Both the position numbers and the translations under genes were made by a program. This document shows, piece by piece, positions 55 to 22,615 of a stretch of DNA of 64,000 nt; position 1 is the first letter of the stretch; each line of letters opens with the position of its first letter. Source of the stretch: Pelagibius litoralis (GTDB lineage Bacteria > Pseudomonadota > Alphaproteobacteria > Kiloniellales > Kiloniellaceae); NCBI RefSeq assembly GCF_011683915.1, contig NZ_JAAQPH010000012.1, forward strand, positions 62,001-126,000, read 5' to 3'. The notes below the pieces were generated by a model. It was given only the letters and a program-made list of their open reading frames with translations, was not told the DNA's origin and made no database searches.

Positions 55-675
55 ATGATTGATGTTGTAACGCCTGATCTTTATTCAGCCTACGCGGGCG
101 AACTGAGGCAAATGTTTCAGCAACGCTTCCGCGTTTTCAAGCAAAGGCTCGGGTGGAGCGTTGGTGCCGAAAACGGCGAGGAACGTGACAGCTTCGACGA
201 CCTCTATCCGATCTACCTGCTGGCAATGGATCCGGACAACAAGCTCGTCGGCAGCTGGCGATTCCTGCCGACGACCGGCCCCTACATGTTGCGCGATGTC
301 TTTCCGCAGATCCTGCAGGGCGAGAAGATGCCTTACCACCCGCTGGTCTGGGAGGGCAGCCGTTTTGCCGTTGAGGGACGCGGCCTGCGGGCGCGGATCA
401 GCAGCGAACTGCTTTGTGCCGTCACCGAAACCTGCCTGGCCATGGGCATCCGCGAGTTGATCACCGTCTATGACGCCCGCATGGAGCGCTTGCTGCCCCG
501 TCTGGGCTGCCCGCCCAAACAGCAGACGCGCGCCACCATGGTTGGCCAGGATGTCGCCTATGCCGGCCGCTTCGATATGAGCCACGCCACCCTGGCCAGC
601 CTGCGTGCGGTCGCCGGCATACAGGGGCCGATTGTCCGCAACGACTTCTTTCTGGATCAGCCGGCTGTTGCCTAG
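55..675 (+). CDS. luxI: Acyl-homoserine-lactone synthase, LuxI family
   Basis: Makes an N-acyl-homoserine-lactone signal from S-adenosylmethionine and an acyl donor in the cytoplasm. Counting from the ATG at 55 (206 aa, normal family length), the hallmark residues fall at nearly canonical positions: R24, F28, W34, E43, D45, D48, R69, then E100-G-S-R103. An ATG at 40 would add five residues, but numbering favours 55. It is the first gene of a same-strand run with a small protein, P450, MFS exporter and acyl-CoA ligase. No LuxR receptor is visible; one may lie upstream. Whether it uses acyl-ACP or acyl-CoA cannot be read from sequence, though the linked ligase hints at CoA. Confidence 0.93.
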   Translation: MIDVVTPDLYSAYAGELRQMFQQRFRVFKQRLGWSVGAENGEERDSFDDLYPIYLLAMDPDNKLVGSWRFLPTTGPYMLRDVFPQILQGEKMPYHPLVWEGSRFAVEGRGLRARISSELLCAVTETCLAMGIRELITVYDARMERLLPRLGCPPKQQTRATMVGQDVAYAGRFDMSHATLASLRAVAGIQGPIVRNDFFLDQPAVA

Positions 676-716
676 ATCCTTACTCAAATGATCCCCCGAA
701 AACTGAGGAGCACAAC

Positions 717-977
717 ATGACCAAAGAAAACCAGCCCATCGAACTGAAGCTCTGCGATCCGCTGAAGGATGCCGAAGCGATTAAGCGCTGCCTGGAGTAT
801 CTGCGGATCGAAGCAAAGCGAACCGGCCTTTCCTTTGCGTCCCACCTGATCGGCGTTGCCGCCGAAGCGGTTTCGGACTCGATTGCCCTGACCGAGAAAT
901 CGGTTGCCCAGGTCGAACGCAACGATGCGGCGCGCTTGTCCCCGGTATCGGATGCCGGCATGTCCCGGCGGCACTAG
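717..977 (+). CDS. Small conserved-looking protein between luxI and P450 genes, unknown function
   Basis: An 86-residue soluble protein with a good ribosome binding site (GAGGAG, 6-7 nt before ATG 717), 41 bp after the luxI stop. The middle (about residues 18-60) looks helical and amphipathic; the tail is polar. There is no signal peptide, membrane segment, cysteine pair or recognised DNA-binding motif. I do not recognise the family. Position suggests a role tied to quorum sensing, for example binding the synthase or receptor as other small LuxI/LuxR-linked modulators do, but that is inference from context only. Confidence 0.72.
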   Translation: MTKENQPIELKLCDPLKDAEAIKRCLEYLRIEAKRTGLSFASHLIGVAAEAVSDSIALTEKSVAQVERNDAARLSPVSDAGMSRRH

Positions 978-1063
978 ATCCGGGGCTTCTTGAGACAGCA
1001 GGCATCTAACGGATCACGGCGGTAAAGGACTGACTGCCGCGGCCGCCGAAGCGGAGCAAGAAC

Positions 1064-2470
1064 ATGACCCTTGTAGTCGATCAGGTATCGGTTGCCGCCG
1101 GCCATCGGAGCAACCACCGGCCGCCGCAACTTAAGGGGCTGCCCGTCGTCGGGTTACTTCCTGAACTTCGTCGCGATCCTTTGCGTTTCTTTACCCGCGT
1201 CGCCCGCGATCACGGCGGTGCGGTCGAACTGCATTTCGGGCTCGACCGGGTGACGATGCTGAACGACCCGGTGATGATCCGTCATGTCTTGCAGGACAAC
1301 CGCCTGAACTACGAGAAGAGCAAGTTCTACGATATGATGCGCTCGGTTCTCGGCGAGGGCATTTTCCTGGCCGAGGGTGAAGACTGGCTGGGCCAGCGCA
1401 AGACCGCGTCGCGTAGCTTCCAGGGATGCCAGCTGCGGCGCATGACCGACGCCATGCAGGATGCCGTCGACGACATGCTGCAACGCTGGCAGGCGCCCGC
1501 CGCACAGCAAGGCACGCTCGACATGGTGCCGGAGATGATGCGGGTAACCCTGGACATCCTCATGCGCACGCTTTTCAGCGTGCGCCTGGAGGGTGAACAC
1601 GAGGCGGTCTTCCCCGCGATGACACGGGTTCTGCGCGACGCCGAGCGGCGTATCTGGTCACCCTTCGCCACGCCGCGCTGGCTCCCGACGGCGAACAATC
1701 GCGGTGTGAAGGAGGCGCTGGCCACGCTCGACAGCTTTGTCTACGGGCTCATTGACCAACGGCGGGCGGAAGGAAGCCGCCACAGCGGCGAGGCCGGCGA
1801 GGGAGCCGGGGGCGACCTGCTCGATTTGCTGATGGCCAATCAGGATGGGCGTTCGGACAAGCGGCTGCGCGATCAGATTCTTTCAATGATCCTGGCCGGG
1901 CACGAGACGACGGCAAACGCCTTGGCCTGGTGCTGGTACATGCTGTCGCTGCATCCGGAATCCCTGCGCCGCGTCAGGACGGAGTGCCGGAGCGTATTGG
2001 GCGGCCGCCGTCCCGATTTCGCCGATCTCGCCAAGCTGACTTATACCCGTAGCGTCTTTGACGAGGTTCTGCGCCTCTACCCGCCGCTCTGGACGTTCTC
2101 GCGCACCGCCGTCGCCAAGGACCGCATCGGGGACCTGGAGATTGCCGCGGGAACCAACGTGATGCTGAACATGTTCGCCGTCCATCGCCGGCCTGAGCTG
2201 TGGGACAATCCGGAAGGGTTTGATCCGGGCCGCTTTGATCCCGAGACCGGCGATCCGCGCCGGCGCTTTGCCTACTTCCCGTTCAGTGACGGCCCGCGGA
2301 CCTGCCTTGGGGAACGCTTTGCCGTTCTCGAATCGCTGATCGCCATAAGCGCAGTCGTCCAGCGTTTCGACCTGCAGCTTGTGCCCGGGCAGGAAGTGAA
2401 GCCCGAGCCGATGATCACCCTGCGACCCAGCGGCCTGTTGATGCGCCCGGTGCCTGTTACAGAGGGTTGA
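1064..2470 (+). CDS. Cytochrome P450 monooxygenase
   Basis: A 468-aa heme-thiolate monooxygenase that would hydroxylate an organic substrate using electrons from a redox partner not encoded here. All landmarks are present: I-helix AGHETT near residue 280, ExxR as EVLR near 334, and the heme loop FSDGPRTCLG with the ligand Cys near residue 414. The style (long N-terminal region, LRLYPP after ExxR) resembles CYP4/CYP102-like fatty-acid hydroxylases more than CYP101 types. It lacks a membrane anchor and a fused reductase. It lies 4 bp before the MFS gene, so translation is probably coupled. In this operon an acyl chain or acyl-HSL is an attractive but unproven substrate. Confidence 0.93.
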   Translation: MTLVVDQVSVAAGHRSNHRPPQLKGLPVVGLLPELRRDPLRFFTRVARDHGGAVELHFGLDRVTMLNDPVMIRHVLQDNRLNYEKSKFYDMMRSVLGEGIFLAEGEDWLGQRKTASRSFQGCQLRRMTDAMQDAVDDMLQRWQAPAAQQGTLDMVPEMMRVTLDILMRTLFSVRLEGEHEAVFPAMTRVLRDAERRIWSPFATPRWLPTANNRGVKEALATLDSFVYGLIDQRRAEGSRHSGEAGEGAGGDLLDLLMANQDGRSDKRLRDQILSMILAGHETTANALAWCWYMLSLHPESLRRVRTECRSVLGGRRPDFADLAKLTYTRSVFDEVLRLYPPLWTFSRTAVAKDRIGDLEIAAGTNVMLNMFAVHRRPELWDNPEGFDPGRFDPETGDPRRRFAYFPFSDGPRTCLGERFAVLESLIAISAVVQRFDLQLVPGQEVKPEPMITLRPSGLLMRPVPVTEG

Positions 2471-2474
2471 GATT

Positions 2475-3635
2475 ATGCCGGCGCCGATCGTGGTCACCCT
2501 GGTCTATCTCATCGGCCTGGGAATCGTGTATCCGGCTCTGCCTTTCCAGGCCCTTGATCTGGGCGCCAGTCCGGTTCAGGTATCGCTGATCCTGGTGACC
2601 GATACCTTGGCCGTGCTGTTGCTTTCGCCTTTGTTCGGACGTCTCAGCGACAAGGTCGGCCGGCGCAGCGTCGTCTGCCTTGCCTTGGCGACGGCGCCTT
2701 TTGCCTATCTCCTGATGGCCTATGCGGATTCGCTGCTCTGGTTGTTTGCGGCGCGCGCCCTGGCCGGCGTCAGCAACGCCGCGATCCCGGTGATCCAGGC
2801 GGTGATGGCGGACTGCACCTGCCACAAGCGGCGTGTCTGGGGGATGGCCAATGTGAACTCCGCCTTTGCCATCGCCTTTATCGTTGGTCCGCTGTTGGGA
2901 CGGGAATGGTTGCTGGGACCAGGTGGCGACGACTATCAGGCGGGTGCCCTGGGGGGCGCAGCCTTTGCCGCCCTCGCGACGGTTCTGGCGATTATGTTGA
3001 TCCGCGAAACCAGAGGGGCACCGGTCGTTGCGAAAAGCAGCGTACCTGTGCCGGCCAGTCTGTTCATGGCGCCGCTCTGTCTTGGCCCCATCGTCATCAT
3101 GGCGGTTCTGGCATTTGCCTATGCCTCGATGGAGACCACTCTGGGTCTCTGGTCGGCCCGCGAGCTTTCCTGGGGGGCCGCGGATGTCTCGCTCGGCTTC
3201 ATGTGCGCCGGCATTGCGGCCCTCTTCAGCCTTTGGGTGCTCATACCGCTCCTGTGCAAGCGTTTGGGTGAAGAGGCCGTGGCTGCAGGGGCGGCTTTGT
3301 CGATGGGGCTGGGCATGTCGCTCTTCGTGCTCTGGCCGAGCGATCTTGCCATCGCGGCCGCCTTGATGCTGCTGGGCGGCGGCATTGCCACGAGTCTTTC
3401 CTGTCTCCAGGCTTTGCTGTCCAAGGCCGCTCCGGCCTCGGTACAAGGCACCGCAATGGGCGTGAACCACGCGATCCTGAGCATCGCGCGCATCCTGGGG
3501 CCGGTCTGGGGGGGCTTTGCGCTGGGCAGTCTGGGCAGCGGCTGGCCCTACCTTTCAGGTGCGGCCCTGGCGTTGATCGCGCTGCTGCTGGTGATCTGGG
3601 TGTACCGGCCGCGGCAGGTGGCCACTGAGGGTTGA
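2475..3635 (+). CDS. MFS transporter, drug:H+ antiporter-like (12 TM)
   Basis: A 386-aa polytopic inner-membrane protein. The loop after the second helix carries the MFS motif A (GRLSDKVGRRS, about residues 55-65), and hydrophobic segments spread over the length fit 12 helices in the TetA/DHA1 layout. A cytoplasmic linker near residues 177-193 separates the two halves. It starts four bases after the P450 stop and is followed after 25 bp by the acyl-CoA ligase. Context suggests export of the product made by this operon; substrate is not predictable from sequence. Confidence 0.88.
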   Translation: MPAPIVVTLVYLIGLGIVYPALPFQALDLGASPVQVSLILVTDTLAVLLLSPLFGRLSDKVGRRSVVCLALATAPFAYLLMAYADSLLWLFAARALAGVSNAAIPVIQAVMADCTCHKRRVWGMANVNSAFAIAFIVGPLLGREWLLGPGGDDYQAGALGGAAFAALATVLAIMLIRETRGAPVVAKSSVPVPASLFMAPLCLGPIVIMAVLAFAYASMETTLGLWSARELSWGAADVSLGFMCAGIAALFSLWVLIPLLCKRLGEEAVAAGAALSMGLGMSLFVLWPSDLAIAAALMLLGGGIATSLSCLQALLSKAAPASVQGTAMGVNHAILSIARILGPVWGGFALGSLGSGWPYLSGAALALIALLLVIWVYRPRQVATEG

Positions 3636-3660
3636 CGGTCTTAACGAGGGAGGCTTGGCG

Positions 3661-5199
3661 ATGTTGAACGTTGCTTTCTATCTGGATGCCACCGCGGTTC
3701 GTGCACCGCAATCAACAGCGCTGGTTTTTGAAGGACGGCGGTTCAACTACGCCCAGATTCTCCATCAGGCCAACCAGGTTGCCAACGGTCTGCTGGCCGA
3801 AGGCTTTGGCCCCGGCAGTCGCATCGCCCTGGCCTGCAGCAATCGGACGGGTTTCCTGGCCGCTTACTATGGCATCCTGAAGATCGGCGCTGTGGCCGTC
3901 GCGTTGAGCACGACACTGCGCGAACGCGATATCCTTTTCCAACTGAATGATTCCCGGGCCGAAGCGCTTCTTACTTTCGATGGCCGTGGCGATTGTGCCT
4001 ATGCCGATCAGTCCCTGGCCGCCGCGGCAGCGGCGCCGCTCTGCAAGAAGGTCTGGATCATTCCCGCCGACATCGCAGCTGCCTCGACGGTTGCCGGGTA
4101 TCCGGCCCTTTCGGATCTGATGTCCGGCCAGTCGGGTTCATTCCGGACTTTCGGCTACGGTGCCGATGAAACGTCGGTGCTGCTCTACACCTCGGGCTCA
4201 ACCGGGCGGCCGAAGGGCGTCGAACTGACGCAGGGCAACCTGACCTCCATGGTCATGATCAACCAGCCTCTGGCGGCGCGCGAGGCGACCGCGGTGCGGT
4301 TGGTTTCGACACCGCTCTTTCACATCATGGGCCAGGTCTGCGGTTTGAACCTTGCGGTCTTGAACGGTGAAATCATGGTTCTGGTCGACGGCTTCGATCC
4401 GTCAATGATCTGGCGTCTGATCGTTGAGGAGTCGGTGACCTACTTCGTTCACATGCCGATCTACTATCAGTACATGATGGAGCGTGCCGACGGCGTCGAC
4501 ACACAGGCCGTGCGGCGCAGTCTTCGGCTTTGCGCTACCGGTGGTGCGCCGCTCCAGGCGGGCCTGTCCGATGCATTCAAAGACCGTTTCGGACTGGACA
4601 TCATACCCGGCTATGGCCTGACCGAGGCGGCGTCGATCGTTGCCTGGGGCGGTGCGGGCGGTTTCCCCCGGGCGACGACGGTCGGCCGGGTGGTGCCCGG
4701 CGTCGAGGTGATGCTGATGGGGGAGCACGGTCTGTCGTCCGATTGCGGCGTCCAGGGCGAAATCCTGGTGCGCAGCCCCGGGGTGATGAAGCGCTACCTG
4801 AACATGCCGGGGGAAACACGCAGCCGCCTGCAGGATGGCTGGCTGCGCAGCGGCGATGTCGGACGTTTCGACGAGATGGGACGTCTCGACGTGCTGGGCC
4901 GCGTGGATGACAAGATTCTGCGGGGCGAGGAGCACATCTACCCCGCTGAGGTAGAGGCTGTTCTGAAGGGGCATCCGGCGATCAGCGAGGCCGCGGTGGT
5001 CGGCATTCCCGACGACTATCTGGGCCAGGAGGCGAAGACCTTCGTGGTGCTCAAAGAAGGCCACTCTCTGGCGCAGGAAGAGCTGCTTGGCTGGCTTCTG
5101 CACGCACTGCCTGACGGCAAGTGCCCGGGCATGGTACAGTTCCAGCATGCCCTGCCACGGACCGGGACCGGCAAGGTTGCCCGTCACCTGTTGGGGTGA
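3661..5199 (+). CDS. AMP-forming acyl/aryl-CoA ligase (ANL superfamily)
   Basis: Activates a carboxylic acid to acyl-AMP and then acyl-CoA. Seen: P-loop YTSGSTGRPKG (about residue 176), YGLTEAAS (about 317), the hinge region GWLRSGDVGRFDE with the following GRVDDKI, and the C-terminal TGTGKVAR with the catalytic lysine, so the enzyme looks complete (512 aa). I chose ATG 3661 because GAGGGAGG ends 7 nt before it; an upstream TTG at 3655 overlaps that site. It is last in the luxI unit. It could supply an acyl- or aryl-CoA donor to the synthase, as seen for CoA-dependent LuxI enzymes, or degrade P450 products. Substrate is unknown. Confidence 0.9.
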   Translation: MLNVAFYLDATAVRAPQSTALVFEGRRFNYAQILHQANQVANGLLAEGFGPGSRIALACSNRTGFLAAYYGILKIGAVAVALSTTLRERDILFQLNDSRAEALLTFDGRGDCAYADQSLAAAAAAPLCKKVWIIPADIAAASTVAGYPALSDLMSGQSGSFRTFGYGADETSVLLYTSGSTGRPKGVELTQGNLTSMVMINQPLAAREATAVRLVSTPLFHIMGQVCGLNLAVLNGEIMVLVDGFDPSMIWRLIVEESVTYFVHMPIYYQYMMERADGVDTQAVRRSLRLCATGGAPLQAGLSDAFKDRFGLDIIPGYGLTEAASIVAWGGAGGFPRATTVGRVVPGVEVMLMGEHGLSSDCGVQGEILVRSPGVMKRYLNMPGETRSRLQDGWLRSGDVGRFDEMGRLDVLGRVDDKILRGEEHIYPAEVEAVLKGHPAISEAAVVGIPDDYLGQEAKTFVVLKEGHSLAQEELLGWLLHALPDGKCPGMVQFQHALPRTGTGKVARHLLG

Positions 5200-5286: not shown

Positions 5287-5634
5287 GTGAGCCGTAACAT
5301 CACAGTGAAAGGCAAGAATCGCCGCCGGGACCGCCGCCACGCCTTGGATCTCCCAGCCGAGTTCGATGGGCAGAGCGTGTCGCTGGTCGACTTGTCGATT
5401 GCCGGCTTTGGCGCAGCCGTCGATGCGACAAGCGTCGAGCCGACCGACTTTGCCATCGGCAAGGTCGCCGTTCTGGCGATCACCCTGAAGGACGGGCGCC
5501 GGATGCGGCTGGATGTGATTATCGAAAGGGGTGTCGCGCCGGACGGAACCTTCGGCGGACGTTTTGTCAGTCTCTCGGACGAGAACTATCGCCTGATCGA
5601 AGCGCTGCTCATGGGGCGTGAGCACCGCGTCTGA
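5287..5634 (+). CDS. PilZ domain protein (putative c-di-GMP receptor)
   Basis: A 115-aa single-domain protein. The N-terminal RRDRRHALDLPAEF provides the RxxxR part of the c-di-GMP site, and DLSIAGFGA provides the D/NxSxxG part, so ligand binding looks intact. Starts with GTG 5287 behind a short GAGG. It stands alone, convergent with the cell-wall hydrolase. A role in switching motility, exopolysaccharide or adhesion in response to c-di-GMP is typical for such stand-alone PilZ proteins, but no target is encoded nearby. Confidence 0.85.
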   Translation: MSRNITVKGKNRRRDRRHALDLPAEFDGQSVSLVDLSIAGFGAAVDATSVEPTDFAIGKVAVLAITLKDGRRMRLDVIIERGVAPDGTFGGRFVSLSDENYRLIEALLMGREHRV

Positions 5635-13720: not shown

Positions 13721-14878
13721 CTAGAGGGCTGCGATATCTCCCTCTGCCTCCTGTCGGGCGAAGCCTGCAACGAAGTCGTCAAGCCGCTGATCCTCTATCG
13801 CCTGGCGCAAACCGGCCATGAGTTCCTGATAGTAGTGGAGATTGTGCCGGGTCAGCAGGATCGGGCCAAGCATCTCCTTGGCTTTGAAAAGATGATGCAG
13901 GTAGGCGCGGGAGTAATCGCTGCAACTCGGGCAGGGGCAATCCGGGTCCAGCGGACGCTGGTCTTCCTGGTGGCGGGCGTTACGCAGATTGATACTGCCG
14001 CGCCGGGTGAAGGCCTGCCCGGTGCGCCCGGAGCGGGTCGGCAGCACGCAGTCGAACATGTCGATGCCGCGCTGCACCGCGCCGACGATGTCGGCGGGCT
14101 TGCCGATCCCCATGAGATAGCGCGGCTGCGCCCTTGGCAGATGCGGAATCGTCGCGTCGAGCACGTCGAACATCGCCTCTTGGCCTTCGCCCACCGCCAG
14201 GCCGCCGACGGCATAGCCGTCGAAGCCGATCTCGATGAGGGCCTCGGCCGAGGTACGGCGCAGCGCCGGATAGACGCCGCCCTGGACGATCCCGAAGAGG
14301 CCATAGCCCGGCCGCTGTGTGAAGGCGGCCCGGCAGCGCGCCGCCCAGCGCATGGAGCGCTCCATCGATTCCCGCGCCTCGGTTTCGGTCGCGGGAAAGG
14401 GCGTACACTCGTCCAGCACCATGGTGATGTTGGAATCCAGCAGCGCCTGGATCTCCATCGCCCGTTCCGGCGTCAGGTTGTGGCGCTCGCCGTCGAGGTG
14501 GGAGCGGAAGGTGACCCCCTCCTCGGTGATCTTGCGCAGCTCCTGCAGGGACATGACCTGATAGCCACCGGAATCGGTCAGGATCGGGCCCGGCCAGTTC
14601 ATGAAGCGGTGCAGGCCGCCCAGGCGCGCGACCCGCTCCGCGCCCGGGCGCAGCATCAGGTGATAGGTGTTGCCCAGGATAATCTCGGCGCCGCTCGCCT
14701 GGACCTGTTCCGTGGTCATGCCCTTTACCGTGCCCGCGGTGCCGACGGTCATGAAAGCCGGCGTTTTCACCGGGCCATGGGCGGTGGTGATGAGGCCGCG
14801 GCGCGCCGGGCCGTCCTCTGCCAGCAGTGCGAACTCCAGACCGGTCTTGCCGGCAACCGGCGCGGCAGAGTCGTTCAT
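13721..14878 (-). CDS. tgt: tRNA-guanine transglycosylase
   Basis: Exchanges guanine 34 for preQ1 in tRNAs with GUN anticodons. The 385-aa protein contains [11 protein letters not shown] with the catalytic Asp, [18 protein letters not shown], the RNA-contact [13 protein letters not shown] and the zinc site CPCPSC...H. Its ATG overlaps the queA stop by four bases, indicating coupled translation, and queG follows after six bases. Confidence 0.96.
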
Positions 14879-15912
14879 CGCGCGTCCTCCGGTTCCAACA
14901 GACAGGCATCGCCATAGGAATAGAAGCGATAGTTCTGCGCGATGGCATGGGCATAGGCCTGCTCCATGCGCGCTTTTCCGGCAAAGGCGCAGACCAGCAT
15001 GAAGAGCGTCGAGCGCGGCAGGTGAAAGTTGGTCATCAGTAGATCGACCGCCTTGAAGCGGTGCCCCGGCAGAATGAAGAGGTCGGTCTCACCGGTGAAG
15101 GAGTGGACCTGCCCGTCGTCGTCCGCGGCGGTCTCCAGCAATCGCAAGGCCGTCGTGCCGACTGCGACGATACGGCCGCCGGCGGCGCGGGCGGCGTTGA
15201 TCTTCGCGGCGGCGGCGGCGCTGATGTCGCAAGCCTCGCTGTGCATCTTGTGGGCGCCGACATCGTCTGTCTTTACTGGCAGGAAGGTCCCGGCGCCGAC
15301 GTGAAGGGTGACCGCAACCCGTTCGATCCCGGCGGCGGAGAGCTTCGCCAGCAACGCCTCGGTGAAGTGCAGCCCCGCGGTGGGGGCGGCGACGGCGCCC
15401 GTCTGCTCTGCGAAGACTGTCTGGTAGTCGTGCCGGTCCTTGGGATCGCCTGTCCGCTCGCGGGTGATATAGGGCGGCAGGGGCATCACGCCGTGCCGGT
15501 CGAGCGCAGCCAGCAGGTCGCCGCCGGTGGTATCGAAAACCAGGGTGACCTCACCGGCCTCGCCTTTTTCTTCGACCAGGGCGCAGAAGCCTTCCGCAAA
15601 ATCGATGCGGTCGCCGGCGGCCAGTTTGCGCGCCGGCCGGGCGAAGGCTTTCCACGTCAGGCCATTAACCGCCTTGTGCAGTGTGACCTCCACGCCTGCG
15701 GTGCCGCGTTTGCCGCTGAGGCGGGCGGGGATGACCTTGGTGTCGTTGGTCACCAACAGGTCGCCGGGCCTGAGCAGGCCGGGCAGGTCGGCGATCCTGC
15801 GGTCCGCCAGTTCGGCGCCGACGTGCAGCAGCCCGGCGGCCTCGCGGGGCTCGACTGGATGCTGGGCGATCAGGTCGCGGGGCAGGTCAAAGTCGAAGTC
15901 TTCGGTGCGCAT
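14875..15912 (-). CDS. queA: S-adenosylmethionine:tRNA ribosyltransferase-isomerase
   Basis: Transfers the ribosyl group of SAM onto preQ1-modified tRNA to give epoxyqueuosine. The start [19 protein letters not shown] is the family's signature N-terminus, which fixes ATG 15912 although the frame stays open another 450 bp. Other blocks: [19 protein letters not shown] and APTAGLHFT. 345 aa is normal length. First of three queuosine genes. The frame upstream overlaps the AlkB-like gene and is not used. Confidence 0.95.
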
Positions 15913-15947
15913 GTCAGCTCGTTTGTGGACTGTCGGGCGATGTCCTA

Positions 15948-16616
15948 TCACCCGCCCGGGCTGAGGCCAAGGGTTGCGACCGATCCGTCCGGCGCCCGCC
16001 GGTCGTGCCTGAAACCGACGCTGATGCGCGGTTCCGTGAAGCGATCGACGAAGTGGAAGGGGCGGTCCTCCAAGCCATAGAGGCCGGGGCCACGCATGAG
16101 AACAAGCCAGCCGACGGGTGCCGGCACCGGACGCGCCTCTGCCGCGCTCCTGTCGCGGCAGACCGCAAAGCGGCAGATGCCGCTCAGCGTAATGACGGAG
16201 ATCAGCCCGCGATAGGCGATATGGTCCCGGTGGGGCGTGATGCCGCCGGAGCCTTTGGGATAGCGCTGAACGATCAGGTCGTTGATGTCGAACCGCTCTG
16301 CCAGGGGAGTGGGCGAAAGCAGTGCAAAGGCTTCGTGGAATGCGTCCTGCAGGCGGCGGGCGCAAGCACCCAGCGCGCCTTCGCGGGGAACTGCGCAGCT
16401 CACCTCGCAGTCCTGCCAGACACGCCTCTCGCCCGCTCCGATCACTGGTGTGGCCGGGCGGTAGGTTAGGGTGCTTGATTCATCAAGCAGCCCCTGGACG
16501 GTGTCGCCGCCGAGCAGCGGCAGGGAGACGGCATCCTCCGCCGGCAATCTGGCGATGGCTTCGGCCAGGGCTGCCGGGCCGCTCTCAAAGGCCGGTGGTT
16601 CGCTGGTCAGGGTCAC
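15948..16616 (-). CDS. 2-oxoglutarate/Fe(II) oxygenase, AlkB-like
   Basis: A 222-aa protein with the double-stranded beta-helix iron site: HRDH (His and Asp ligands), a later His near HFVDRF, and RISVGFRH with the Arg that holds 2-oxoglutarate. The [20 protein letters not shown] block resembles AlkB-type dealkylases and related hydroxylases. Substrate (alkylated DNA or RNA, or protein) cannot be settled. It lies 35 bp upstream of queA on the same strand and could be co-transcribed with the queuosine genes. Confidence 0.78.
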
Positions 16617-17233: not shown

Positions 17234-17806
17234 CTAGTTGCCGGTTTCGTCGGGCAGGCGACGGCCTTCGCGCCATTCCCAGGGCGTCACGAAGCGGCCC
17301 TTCCAGAGGCCCCTTTGACGCTGTTCCGCCTGCTTCTGAATGGCCGAAAAGGCCGCAACGCTTGCCTGGCGTGTGGTTTCCGGCGGGATCAGCGCCCAGC
17401 CGGTATAGACCATGCCTTCGGAGAGATCGTAGCCGCCCGCCCGGCAGCGCGCGAGCCGGGGTGTCACAGCAGCTGTTGCCTGAAGCGCCGCCTGTTGTCC
17501 CGACACAGGCCGGCATTCCACCTCGGCGCCGGCGGTGAGATCCATCAGGGCGGCCCGTGCCAGACGGCCGCAGTCGTAGAAGCGCTCACGTTTATTGCAG
17601 CGCTGGTCGAGTTCCGGTGCGTCGATATCGGCAAGATCGAAAGACTGCCCGGCGATCCGCAGGCTGTCACCGTCGATGATCTCGGCCGGGCCGCTTATGC
17701 TTGTTGCCTGGCCTGCTGCCGCCCCGGCCGGAATGCCGGCGAGTGCCGCCGCCAGGCTAACAGTCAGGTATGCGATCGCTTTCCCCGACCGTTCTGACCA
17801 GCGCAT
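17234..17806 (-). CDS. Secreted thermonuclease-like (SNase fold) protein
   Basis: Signal peptide (about residues 10-33) followed by an SNase-type OB fold: IIDGDSLRIAGQSFDLADIDAPE resembles the family opening, then a CGRLA segment and a late GLWKGRFVTPWEWR. The classical catalytic Arg/Glu trio is only partly evident, and extra cysteines (RCNKRERFYDC, ARCRAGG) suggest disulfides in the periplasm. The start is either GTG/ATG near 17830 or ATG 17806; both lie inside the end of the upstream XRE gene, a 50-bp or longer overlap. A degenerate or non-nuclease role is possible. Confidence 0.75.
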   Translation of the reverse strand: MRWSERSGKAIAYLTVSLAAALAGIPAGAAAGQATSISGPAEIIDGDSLRIAGQSFDLADIDAPELDQRCNKRERFYDCGRLARAALMDLTAGAEVECRPVSGQQAALQATAAVTPRLARCRAGGYDLSEGMVYTGWALIPPETTRQASVAAFSAIQKQAEQRQRGLWKGRFVTPWEWREGRRLPDETGN

Positions 17807-18200
17807 AGATCTGCCGCCTGACACTGACATCCTCGATTTTGCTGAAAGCCTGAACCAGCCTCAGCGTATCACGCTGGCTTAGGAGGTCGGGAACACGATC
17901 CAGTGAATCGCCCGTCCGGCCCGGGGATTCGGCGGTCGACGGCCGTTGGGCCTGCGCCAGGTCCATGAAGAAATACTGAACCGGTACCTGTAACACCTGG
18001 GCAAGGCGGAACAGACGGCTGGCTACAATGCGGTTGGTACCGCGCTCATACTTTTGAATCTGTTGGAAGGTGATACCCAAGGACTGGGCCACTGTGTTTT
18101 GACTGAGCCCCATCGCCAGGCGGCGCAGCCGCAGTCTGGAGCCTATGGAGAGGTCGACGGGATCAGGTTTCGCCGCTTCTGAAAGGTTGGTCTCGGACAC
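17757..18200 (-). CDS. XRE-family helix-turn-helix transcriptional regulator
   Basis: A 147-aa protein with a Cro/CI HTH at about residues 18-72: IGSRLRLRRLAMGLSQNTVA, QSLGITFQQIQKYERGTNRI and LAQVLQVPVQYFF are textbook for the family. A polar linker and a helical C-terminus (about 105-147) follow, probably for dimerisation. It starts with GTG 18200. Its 3' end overlaps the SNase-like gene by about 50 bp in another frame. This architecture is common in alphaproteobacteria; regulon unknown. Confidence 0.9.
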   Translation of the reverse strand: MSETNLSEAAKPDPVDLSIGSRLRLRRLAMGLSQNTVAQSLGITFQQIQKYERGTNRIVASRLFRLAQVLQVPVQYFFMDLAQAQRPSTAESPGRTGDSLDRVPDLLSQRDTLRLVQAFSKIEDVSVRRQIYALVRTVGESDRIPDC

Positions 18201-19309: not shown

Positions 19310-22300
19310 CTATTCGCCGGGCGCCGGCGCGGGCGGTGAGGGGCGGGAAGCAGGTTCTGCGGCCTGCCTGCCTTCAAGGGTGCCGACCAGCACGGCCATC
19401 ATCGGCGGGATGATGAGCAGCGTCAGAACGGCGGAAAGCGATAGTCCGCCGACCACCACCGATCCCAAACCGCGATAAAGCTCTGAGCCGGCCCCGGGGA
19501 AGAGGACCAGCGGCAGCATGCCCACGACCGAGGTCAGGGTCGACATGAAGATCGGCCGGATCCTGTTGCGTGTGGCTTCAAGGATGGCGTCGCCGGCGGC
19601 CATGCCCTCTTCACGCAGGTGGTAAAGGCTCTGATGTACCAGCAGGATCGCATTGTTCACGACAATGCCGATCAGGATGACGAAGCCCAGCAGGGTCAGC
19701 ATATCCAGCGGCTGGTAGCTGTAGATGTTCAGAATGGCCAGGCCGGCGACCCCGCCCGCAGCTGCAAGCGGCACCGACAGCAGGATGATCAACGGATAGA
19801 AGAAGCTCTCGAACAGCACCGCCATGACCAGATAGACGATCGCCAAGGCCAGCAGCAGGTCGATCACCATGGCCTCCCAGGTCTGGGACAGCTTGTCCGC
19901 TGTTCCCGAGATGCCGAACTTGATCCCCGGGGGCAATCCTTCGGCGGTCATCGGGTCCATTACCTCGGCACGCAGCCTATCGAGTGCCGCTTCCAGCGGG
20001 ATGCCGGGTGCCGGGCGGATTTCGAGGGTAACGGTCCGGAAACGTTCGCGGTGTCGAATTTCCGTCGGCCCGGAGGTCAGCACCACGTCGGCCAGGGACG
20101 AGGCCGGGATGATATCGCCGCCGGGCGTAACCACCGGCAGGCTGGCGATCCCCTGGGTCTCGACGATGTTGAGGTCCGGGCCTTTCAGCATCAGGTCAAG
20201 GCGGTCGGAGCCGACTGTCACCTCTGCGACCCGCAGCCCGTCGTTGAAGGTGTCGATCGCCTCGCCGAGCTGACGGGCGGTGATGCCGTTGTCGGCCAGG
20301 CGCAGCCGGTCGGGGAACAGCCGGAGCTCCGGAGCGCCCAGTTCCAATCCCGGATTGGGGCGCAGCTGATTGCCTTCCTCGCGCGGCATAATCTGCGAGA
20401 TGCGTCCGACCGCCTGCAAGGCGACCCCCAGGATCTGTTCCAGATCGGGGCCCGAGATATCCAGATCGATTTTCCGGCCCGAGCCGATACCGCGTCCGAA
20501 GATCGAGGGTTGGTTGATGAAGCCGAAGGTCCCCGGTTCCCGAAACACCGGACCCTCCAGCAACGGGATAAGCTCTGCGGCCCGCTGCGGATCCATCGCG
20601 ACGGCGCCGAGGAAGGTGGTCGAGCGTGTTGCGACGAAGAAGAAGCGCTCGATTTCGGGTGGGGCGGCCGCGCCGTTTCCACCGGACCAGAGACGGCTGA
20701 TCCTTTCTTTGGCTGCCGCGGCGAACCCGGTGAAGGAGAACGGCTCCGACTCTTCGGGCGCGTTCTCGCTGGCGTTAATGGTGGCCTCGTCGGCCCAGAG
20801 GTAGCGGGTCGCTTCCTCAATGCCCTCGGCGATCTCGGTCGTGGTGCCGAGATTGTAGCCGGGCGGCGGGATGATGATCCCGAAGACCAGGTTGCGGTTG
20901 CCCTCCGGCAGGTATTCCAGTTTTGGCAGGAACTGCCAGGCGCCGAGCGAGGCGACGGACGTCACGGAGACAACGACCACCAAAGCGACAAGGCGGCTGC
21001 GCACCACCAGACGGGCGAAGGCCATAACCGTGGCGACGAAAAGCGATGCGAGATCGTCAATGATGGGCAGGCGCAGCCGCGTTATGCGGTCGTCGCCGGC
21101 CTTGCCGCGTCTGCCGCCCAGCAGTCGGCTGGAAAGGGCCGGCAGCACCGTGACCGAAACCAGCAGAGAGAGCATCACCGAGACCGAGATGGCTACGGCG
21201 ATATCACGGAACAGCTGGCCCACTTCCAGCTGCATGACCAGAATCGGAATGAAGACCATCACCGTCGTCAGGGCGGAGACCAGGACGGCGCCCCAGACCT
21301 GCTTGGCGCCCAGGTAGGCGGCTTCGCGCAGCGGGCGCCCCTGTTCGCGCAGGCGGAAGATATTTTCCAGCACCACGATTGCCGCGTCGACCACCATGCC
21401 GACGGCAAAGGCGATCCCGGCAAGAGAAATCACGTTGATGGAGCGACCCATGGCGGCCATGGCCACAAAGGCGCCGATCACCGAAACCGGGATCGCGATG
21501 GAAACCACCAGGGTGGCGCCGAAAGAGCGCAGGAAGACCAACAGGATGACCGCGGCCAGGCTGCCGCCGATCCAGATGTTCTGCTGCACCAGGTCGATGG
21601 CGGAATTGATGTAGACGGTTTCGTCGTAGACCTGGCGCATCTTCAGGCCGGCGTTTGGAATCACACCGGCGCGCAGGTCTTCGACCGCGGCTTTGATGCC
21701 TTCCATGGTCTCGATCACATTGGCGCCGGTTTCGCGCTGGGCGTTCATCGCCAAGGCGCCCTGGCCCCGCATGCGGATCGAGGCGCCGGCGTCTTTGTAG
21801 CCGAATGAAACCTCGGCGATGTCGCTGATGCGCACGCGGGCGACACGCCCACGCTCGCCGCCCGAATCACTGCGCACGACGACGGAGCGGACGGCCTCCA
21901 GGGTGTTCAGCTCGCCTTCGGTGCGCACCACATAGCGACGCTTGCCCTCGTCCACATCGCCGGCGCTGAGCGAGGCATTGGCCCGGCGCAGCGCATCGAC
22001 GACCTCGCTGACGGTCATGCGGTAGCGGGCCAGCACCCTGGGGTCGACGGTGATCTGGATTTCCCGCTCCGTCCCGCCGAAGACGTTTACGCGGCTGACC
22101 CCGGGGACCCGCTCGATACGCTCGCGGATGATGTCCTCGGCGAAGTCGCCGTATTCGTAGATCGGCCGCTCATTGCCGTCCTGGCGCGTCAGGATGAACC
22201 AGGCAATGGGGCTGTCTTCGCTGCCGGCGGTATCGAAGCTCGGCTCGTCGGCCTCGTCGGGATAGCCGTTGACCCGGTCCAGCCGGTTGGAGACCAGCAG

Positions 22301-22615
22301 CAAAGCGCGGTCCATATTGGTGCCGACCGCGAATTCCAGGGTGATACGGGCACGTCCCTGTTCCGACCGCGACGTAATGCTCTCCAGGCTCTCGATGCCC
22401 TTCAGCTCGTCTTCCTGGCGGTTGGTGATCTCGCGTTCCACCTCCGCCGGCGCTGCGCCGCCCCAGCTGGTCGTGACCGTGATGACCGGACGGTTTACGT
22501 CGGGGGCCAGCTGAATCGGGATCGTCTGCAGGGCGACCAGGCCGAACATCACCACCATCAGCACCGCGGCAATCACCGCAATCGGCCGTTCGATGGCGAG
22601 CCTGATCAGGTCCAT
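19310..22615 (-). CDS. RND efflux transporter, inner-membrane pump (HAE1-type)
   Basis: A 1101-aa proton-driven pump with twelve helices and two large periplasmic loops, working with the adaptor encoded just upstream. The N-terminus MDLIRLAIERPIAVIAAVLM and DVNRPVITVTTSWGGA fit the AcrB-like family. TM4 reads GMVVDAAIVVLEN, so only the first of the two AcrB relay aspartates is kept, and TM10 reads IGIVVNNAIL, with Asn where AcrB has its relay Lys. A Gly/Ala-rich insertion lies near residues 635-655. No outer-membrane TolC gene is nearby. Overlaps the adaptor stop by one base. Confidence 0.93.
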   Translation of the reverse strand: MDLIRLAIERPIAVIAAVLMVVMFGLVALQTIPIQLAPDVNRPVITVTTSWGGAAPAEVEREITNRQEDELKGIESLESITSRSEQGRARITLEFAVGTNMDRALLLVSNRLDRVNGYPDEADEPSFDTAGSEDSPIAWFILTRQDGNERPIYEYGDFAEDIIRERIERVPGVSRVNVFGGTEREIQITVDPRVLARYRMTVSEVVDALRRANASLSAGDVDEGKRRYVVRTEGELNTLEAVRSVVVRSDSGGERGRVARVRISDIAEVSFGYKDAGASIRMRGQGALAMNAQRETGANVIETMEGIKAAVEDLRAGVIPNAGLKMRQVYDETVYINSAIDLVQQNIWIGGSLAAVILLVFLRSFGATLVVSIAIPVSVIGAFVAMAAMGRSINVISLAGIAFAVGMVVDAAIVVLENIFRLREQGRPLREAAYLGAKQVWGAVLVSALTTVMVFIPILVMQLEVGQLFRDIAVAISVSVMLSLLVSVTVLPALSSRLLGGRRGKAGDDRITRLRLPIIDDLASLFVATVMAFARLVVRSRLVALVVVVSVTSVASLGAWQFLPKLEYLPEGNRNLVFGIIIPPPGYNLGTTTEIAEGIEEATRYLWADEATINASENAPEESEPFSFTGFAAAAKERISRLWSGGNGAAAPPEIERFFFVATRSTTFLGAVAMDPQRAAELIPLLEGPVFREPGTFGFINQPSIFGRGIGSGRKIDLDISGPDLEQILGVALQAVGRISQIMPREEGNQLRPNPGLELGAPELRLFPDRLRLADNGITARQLGEAIDTFNDGLRVAEVTVGSDRLDLMLKGPDLNIVETQGIASLPVVTPGGDIIPASSLADVVLTSGPTEIRHRERFRTVTLEIRPAPGIPLEAALDRLRAEVMDPMTAEGLPPGIKFGISGTADKLSQTWEAMVIDLLLALAIVYLVMAVLFESFFYPLIILLSVPLAAAGGVAGLAILNIYSYQPLDMLTLLGFVILIGIVVNNAILLVHQSLYHLREEGMAAGDAILEATRNRIRPIFMSTLTSVVGMLPLVLFPGAGSELYRGLGSVVVGGLSLSAVLTLLIIPPMMAVLVGTLEGRQAAEPASRPSPPAPAPGE

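Follow-up and report, generated by a model that had tools for sequence, protein, structure and literature searches.

A five-gene operon at positions 55–5199 of the Pelagibius litoralis DNA analysed here (G000:C3:62001-126000, a stretch of 64,000 nucleotides referred to in its entirety as the window) encodes an acyl-homoserine lactone (AHL, or acyl-HSL) synthase of the LuxI family together with a cytochrome P450, and the genomic association between luxI and this P450 is strong. The operon is best read as an AHL quorum sensing (QS) system with a dedicated oxidase, and it appears somewhat more probable than the alternatives combined that the P450 makes an oxidised acyl-HSL, a chemistry that we infer from sequence. 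All five genes lie on the + strand and, according to their open reading frame (ORF) coordinates, are separated by intergenic gaps of 41, 86, 4, and 25 bp. The first is luxI (55–675; 206 aa; PF00765, 128 bits against a cut-off of 24), for which an in-frame ATG at 40 is an alternative to the ATG at 55. It is followed by a gene for an 86-aa protein (717–977) that belongs to a luxI-linked family and is predicted to form a two-helix hairpin, an intact P450 of 468 aa (1064–2470; PF00067, 310 bits), a Tet-like transporter of the major facilitator superfamily (MFS) that is a candidate exporter (2475–3635; 386 aa; PF07690, 148.5 bits), and an AMP-forming acyl-coenzyme A (CoA) ligase (3661–5199; 512 aa from its ATG, with a TTG at 3655 as the other possible start; PF00501, 258 bits, plus PF13193). 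This arrangement, the gap lengths, the completeness of luxI, and the intactness of the P450 had all been given in a preliminary description of the DNA, and they are borne out by the ORFs and Pfam matches, by the LuxI catalytic residues, and by the AGHETT motif, ExxR motif, and Cys ligand of the P450. The host genome (6.03 Mb) contains a single PF00765 match and two PF00067 matches, the second of which is much weaker. The ratio of nonsynonymous to synonymous substitution rates (dN/dS) is 0.05–0.18 in all comparisons, for which one relative was used with luxR and three with the other five genes.

The association is evident in two genome samples. Among 385 genomes of the class, themselves a sample from a larger group, 59 match PF00765 (77 rows), and a P450 gene is adjacent to luxI in at least 11 of these 59 (G000, G364, G263, G242, G375, G328, G207, G294, G194, G102, and G276), a lower bound since only 1.5 kb of flank was covered in 14 of the 30 highest-ranking luxI rows. 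From the P450 counts of each genome, a P450 would be expected within two genes of luxI for 0.57 of the 77 rows, on the assumptions that gene density is 0.95 genes per kb and that the genomes are independent. Three of the 11 linked genomes share a genus; the probability of nine or more arising by chance is 4e-9. Furthermore, the P450 adjacent to luxI is the sole P450 match of the genome in 4/11 cases (G364, G375, G102, and G276). On the class counts, the low expectation, and the genomes with a sole P450, we reject the P450 as a chance neighbour of luxI. A twelfth pair is probable in G154: its P450 gene stops 246 bp short of a contig end, and luxI with the small ORF is oriented towards the end of a second contig. 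A thirteenth, likewise split by the assembly, is possible in G305 (L144, L211), with 310 bp between luxI and one contig end and 100 bp between another contig end and the start of a P450 gene. Within the order, 22 of the 61 genomes sampled match luxI, and the P450 adjoins luxI in at least 13 of the 22 (the eight genomes of the genus, G040, G034, G018, G058, and G025), which is again a lower bound.

The two proteins also occur as fusions. In G058 (L084, 7623-9620), the P450 and LuxI are encoded in one ORF of 665 aa, and in G207 (L120) and G449 (L215), which belong to one genus, both domains occur within a 699-codon open frame. An assembly slip is unlikely, since the fusion occurs in three genomes from two families. 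On reading of the G058 and G207 sequences, the P450 part has AGHETT, ExxR, and the Cys ligand, and the LuxI part retains its catalytic residues, with no loss visible by eye at the LuxI N-terminus. An apparent fusion in G026 (a luxI frame of 427 aa, inspected by eye with no domain search) was rejected because it looks like a stop-to-stop extension. Separately, the luxI match of L121 (G317:C4:822001-841000) lies within an open frame of 459 aa. The adjacency of luxI and P450 above expectation, together with the one-frame fusions, favours a P450 that modifies the signal. The proposal in the preliminary description that the P450 oxidises the acyl chain or the finished lactone is thereby strengthened as regards the pairing (adjacency in at least 11/59 genomes and three fusions), while its chemical part is still a prediction.

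The nine-gene order kinase-XRE-luxR-luxI-small ORF-P450-MFS-ligase-PilZ is kept in all eight genomes of the genus (the window, L003-L008, and L086; L007 is from the cultured P. marinus NBU2595), and luxR-luxI-small ORF-P450-MFS-ligase also occurs in another genus (G040, with luxR and the ligase cut by contig ends; identities of 44–55% for luxI, P450, MFS, and ligase) and in another family (G034; identities of 37–52% for luxI, P450, MFS, ligase, and luxR). The gene-order search that had been suggested as a check thus recovered both the order and the 86-aa gene in 8/8 genus genomes, G040, and G034, and the MFS gene is kept in all of these. Amongst the 25 loci in which luxI and a P450 are linked (hereafter linked loci), the MFS gene is present in 10 and the ligase gene in 12 (those 10, G242 without MFS, and a distant one near the G025 pair), and no nearby ligase was found in the other 13, with three linked loci (L117, L129, and L131) cut near the P450 by contig ends. 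The core of the locus is luxI plus P450, and the MFS and ligase genes are accessories of a subset.

In loci without the MFS gene, the genes after the P450 encode a helicase (L010), an ABC permease (L030), an epimerase and a glycosyltransferase (L024), Sel1-repeat proteins (L143, L216), an enoyl-CoA hydratase (L214), a histidine kinase (L162), or a ribbon-helix-helix protein (L167). Because these genes vary among the loci lacking MFS and ligase, no shared larger pathway was found, and a shared larger metabolite cluster was rejected. It is also unlikely that the P450, MFS transporter, and ligase form a production and export route for an unrelated lipid- or aryl-derived metabolite whose only tie to the system is quorum control. 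A ligase, a P450, and an exporter would suit such a pathway, the best PDB match of the ligase is a feruloyl-CoA synthetase (8wev), and the available part of PMC13136126 places Streptomyces luxI homologues and one Bradyrhizobium luxI/R pair in regions with many monooxygenases and other enzymes. However, the variable genes after the P450 in loci without a ligase, the fusion of P450 and LuxI in three genomes, and the P450 being the sole match in 4/11 linked genomes all argue against it. The ligase also has FadD-like matches, with FadD13 (3r44) among its best in the PDB, and the MFS protein matches tet_MFS_A_B_C_D with 111.5 bits, under the cut-off of 475.

Most of the P450s found beside luxI also group together in trees. 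Across 12 aligned linked P450s, which have the acid-threonine pair, ExxR, and the Cys ligand, T282, E334, R337, and C414 are invariant and E281 is nearly so. The closest matches to the window P450 are by name from Pelagibius metagenome-assembled genomes (MAGs), a Rhodospirillales MAG, a Kiloniellaceae MAG, and P. marinus, and 176 plasmid records matched it with less than 60% identity in every case. A search with the P450 alone yielded 54 loci, nine of which contain luxI (L003-L008, L010, L024, and L030), and all nine fall in the linked group of a first tree (25 luxI-linked and 48 unlinked rows, with rows shorter than 300 aa dropped), where one branch parts linked from unlinked sequences (94/85) and 19 linked rows with the window are grouped at 96/87. 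Of the other 45 loci, 41 are represented in this tree (L036, L046, L052, and L054 are absent) and all lie outside the linked group; these 41 loci supply the unlinked rows, and 11 of them have less than 3 kb on one side. Since the unlinked rows of the first tree come largely from other phyla and include hardly any Alphaproteobacteria, 24 unlinked alphaproteobacterial rows were added in a larger tree built by a quicker method, in which 21 of the 24 form their own clade (99) and L192 branches alone. A profile of linked P450s (A1) gave eight matches above 600 bits in the class sample, seven of them beside luxI and the eighth in G154, where luxI is probably adjacent across a contig break; the profile was built from linked loci, and five of the eight matches were themselves A1 rows, while G194, G375, and G154 were not. 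The next match (502 bits) is L219, a paralogue in G242 with no luxI in the surrounding 11 kb. The preliminary description had treated the occurrence of this P450 mostly without luxI as evidence against the pathway, and for this P450 group the reverse was found, with 7/8 such class matches beside luxI. A second, more distant type of luxI-P450 pair with a divergent luxR and no small ORF found is observed in L162, L167, L085, and L217, and possibly represents a separate P450 recruitment.

An alignment of 19 LuxIs shows no variation at R24, F28, W34, D45, D48, R69, E100, and R103, and the best PDB matches of the window protein are LasI (E 2.2e-25) and TofI (3p2f, which is named AHL synthase in the PDB table and which we take to be TofI). 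The known LuxIs that use acyl-CoA form one clade without the conserved basic residues of the acyl carrier protein (ACP) loop, according to the portion of PMC4234381 available. In a tree of 102 LuxI rows, which was built without RpaI and EsaI, none of the 25 P450-linked LuxIs falls in the six-row clade of BjaI and 6wns (91/97). The position of LasI K150 is basic in 24/25 linked versus 31/73 other LuxIs, that of R154 in 18/25 versus 35/73, and the window LuxI, basic at both positions, reads ER/R in the ACP loop as does TofI, compared with LP/E in BjaI and PK/A in 6wns. By motif and tree the LuxI is of the ACP type, and acyl-ACP is most likely its donor.

These data bear on the version put forward in the preliminary description, in which a LuxI of the RpaI/BjaI/BraI type directly uses an acyl- or aryl-CoA supplied by the ligase and the P450 carries out the oxidation. 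The encoding of a CoA-ligase-type enzyme near the synthase is a feature shared with the RpaI/BjaI/BraI systems, and the ligase and MFS genes are kept together in 10 linked loci, with the ligase retained without MFS in G242. Nevertheless, feeding of acyl-CoA to LuxI by the ligase is unsupported because the LuxI lies outside the BjaI/6wns clade and retains the basic ACP-loop residues (24/25 and 18/25 at the two positions, as opposed to LP/E and PK/A), features which, along with the P450, set the locus apart from the RpaI/BjaI/BraI systems. In addition, 13/25 linked loci have no nearby ligase, some being cut by contig ends. The candidate role of the ligase as supplier of acyl-CoA to a BjaI-type LuxI was rejected on tree placement and ACP-loop residues, and the version as a whole is considered improbable. 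The locus resembles the ACP-dependent AHL QS of LasI and TofI in its LuxI catalytic and ACP-loop residues, adjacent luxR, and lux-box-like palindrome, and differs from it in that the P450 is a recurrent partner gene here and a fused domain in some genomes. To our knowledge, no P450 partner has been described for LasI or TofI.

Returning to the favoured reading of an operon that makes an oxidised acyl-HSL, the following scheme can be proposed. LuxI would form an acyl-HSL from S-adenosylmethionine and, most likely given its clade and ACP loop, acyl-ACP. The P450 would then hydroxylate or otherwise oxidise the acyl chain, with either the completed lactone or the acyl donor as its substrate, as suggested by co-inheritance and fusion, and the mature signal would be an oxidised acyl-HSL. 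The LuxR encoded upstream would bind this signal and activate the operon from the conserved palindrome described below, while the 86-aa hairpin protein, by analogy with CinS and MmaP, would bind and neutralise the adjacent PraR-like repressor. Among the accessory proteins, whose roles are the least certain parts of the scheme, the MFS transporter may export the more polar signal, and the ligase may activate a free acid, perhaps in the manner of an acyl-ACP synthetase or for the salvage of acyl tails.

The 86-aa protein has no Pfam or NCBIfam match at E<=0.001, and a fold search with its hairpin returned no match at the same threshold. Its model consists of helices at residues 15–35 and 39–73, with a predicted local distance difference test (pLDDT) score of 92–98 in residues 21–60, and a common hairpin motif is found in the ORFs that occupy the luxI-P450 gap. 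A hidden Markov model (HMM) of 18 small ORFs, trained on P450-linked loci only, matched ten held-out loci at E<0.01; eight of the ten matches lie 42–248 bp 3' of luxI on the same strand (E values of 1.5e-13 in G154, 7.5e-8 in G137, 6e-7 in G026, and 0.002–0.007 in five). The small ORF is present in 12/17 linked loci versus 3/55 others, and a PraR-like gene lies close to luxI in 8 of the 13 linked loci for which 4 kb of flank was covered, versus 1 of 40 others, with the set of others in both comparisons including the probably linked G154. In the partial texts of PMC4149787 and PMC10790750, CinS and MmaP are encoded 3' of luxI and bind PraR. The 86-aa gene resembles theirs because a conserved predicted hairpin follows luxI and a PraR-like gene is present in the locus, and the protein is likely to be a CinS/MmaP-like antirepressor, an assignment made by analogy. 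The locus shares with CinR-CinI-CinS/PraR of Rhizobium leguminosarum and MmaR-MmaI-MmaP/PraR of Methylobacterium a small gene after luxI and a PraR-family XRE protein in the genome, but the protein has 86 aa compared with 59 aa for MmaP, the PraR-like paralogue lies inside the QS locus, and a P450 gene comes after the small gene. The canonical PraR gene of the host (G000:C27) is followed by S-AdoMet synthetase and Methyltransf_4 genes, matching the PraR setting in the available part of PMC10790750, and the XRE protein encoded beside luxR is 50% identical to it. A second PraR-like XRE gene in the window (17760-18200, - strand; 43% identical to the XRE beside luxR) lies near queuosine genes (TGT, 13724-14878; QueA-type, 14878-16365). 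Weak small-ORF copies (E 0.002–0.007) directly 3' of luxI were also observed in L105, L108, L112, L113, and L116, where no P450 occurs within the 1.5 kb covered, and the small-ORF family may extend beyond loci that pair luxI with a P450.

The operon begins 5' of the window, with an XRE regulator gene and luxR directly before luxI. The PraR-like XRE regulator (L002, 10471-10917) precedes luxR (L002, 11127-11897), whose product has both the autoinducer-binding domain (PF03472, 105.8 bits) and the GerE domain (PF00196, 56 bits). Between luxR and luxI, all eight genus genomes contain the palindrome CCCCCCA(T/G)TTCTGGGGGG, one base of which is changed in L005 and L006, whereas the six remaining genomes share an exact 16-mer core. 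This core has a single copy in the genome, at G000:C3:61977-61992 (24 to 9 bases 5' of the window), and no copy with two or fewer mismatches occurs inside the 64-kb window; genome-wide, three more sites with two mismatches were found, compared with 4 and 5 in the reversed control. The palindrome is lux-box-like and can be interpreted as a putative LuxR operator.

Nearest structures give a further, though only suggestive, hint as to the substrate of the P450. By sequence, the best PDB match is 7wzl (244 bits), followed by a CYP97-type structure and 3dbg, and a fold search with the model (mean pLDDT 74.5) placed CYP97C1, CYP184A1 with oleic acid, CYP97A3, CYP4B1, and CYP102A1 at the top. Several of these neighbours act on fatty acyl chains, and those of the CYP97 type act on carotenoids; CYP102A1 carries its own reductase.

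A number of observations weigh against the reading of the P450 as a dedicated signal-tailoring enzyme. The operon genes include no redox partner gene. Seven genomes of the same family but other genera (G038, G042, G043, G045, G047, G048, and G050) have luxI with no P450 in the flank covered. In the larger P450 tree, the unlinked L219 (the G242 paralogue) and L211 (G305; a long branch at a contig end) fall inside the main group, the luxI label needs three changes (22.3 in shuffles), and the fused pair together with L085, L117, L162, and L167 lies outside the main group, so some of the luxI-P450 pairings may be separate events. The P450-linked LuxIs are likewise not one clade (six changes in a weakly resolved tree). 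The small ORF was not found in 5/17 linked loci, both fused ones included, and its HMM has weak matches elsewhere (L142, 1e-4; L085, 0.005). Finally, the P450 could inactivate the signal instead of making it.

This last point corresponds to an attenuation loop, in which the P450 would oxidise the acyl-HSL to a less active form as negative feedback within the operon. The window P450 resembles CYP102A1 (P450 BM3) in having it among its fold neighbours, at 22–24% identity, and the accessible part of PMC3355433 reports that CYP102A1 oxidises AHLs at ω-1, ω-2, and ω-3 and lowers their bioassay activity, although less than lactonolysis does. A P450 encoded behind luxI in the same operon would also rise with the signal. 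CYP102A1 differs from the window P450 in carrying its own reductase, and the reported lowering of activity differs from the role proposed here. On the other hand, a fusion would expose every signal molecule to the oxidase at once, an arrangement that fits modification better than removal. Attenuation is accordingly regarded as rather unlikely, and production of an oxidised acyl-HSL is preferred.

Acyl-HSL diversity is usually credited to LuxI and its donor pool. If the favoured reading is true, a conserved tailoring oxidase, which in some genomes is one protein with the synthase, would add a genetically predictable layer of chain-oxygenated signals. These may be restricted to the bacteria that produce them, and standard biosensors or liquid chromatography–mass spectrometry (LC-MS) based on standards could readily overlook them. 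P450s would then have a part in making rather than quenching AHLs, and adjacency or fusion of luxI and such a P450 would serve as a sequence rule for finding oxidised signals. The chances appear evenly balanced for the broader proposition that the AHL synthase of several alphaproteobacterial families regularly works with a partner monooxygenase, at times fused to it, giving rise to a hitherto unrecognised class of oxidised AHLs with dedicated LuxRs and, in many loci, a relay consisting of a hairpin antirepressor encoded after luxI and a PraR-like repressor of the same locus. A precedent comes from the marine strain MOLA 401, which makes poly-hydroxylated AHLs and for which a P450 was proposed to modify the acyl chain, with no link between luxI and a P450 gene given in the part of the source available (PMC5479921); a P450 origin of those AHLs becomes testable. 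Searches of an open-licence library, from which most subscription papers are absent, turned up no luxI-P450 operon or fusion. The available text of PMC13136126 describes monooxygenase-rich luxI surroundings without the term 'P450', and the pairing is not described in the accessible portions of PMC3824088, PMC9860996, and PMC5082802.

Other genes flank the system. A PilZ-like gene (5287–5634, + strand; PF07238, 19.9 bits, under the cut-off of 22.5) lies 3' of the ligase in 8/8 genus genomes, which hints at a link to cyclic diguanylate (c-di-GMP), and is perhaps outside the system. At the other end, a CHASE4 histidine kinase gene (L002, 8242-9861 = G000:C3:58242-59861) precedes XRE-luxR-luxI, with homologues at the same place in 8/8 genus genomes, and may add another input. 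Further along the window, a large gene on the - strand (19313-22615) encodes an AcrB-family transporter.

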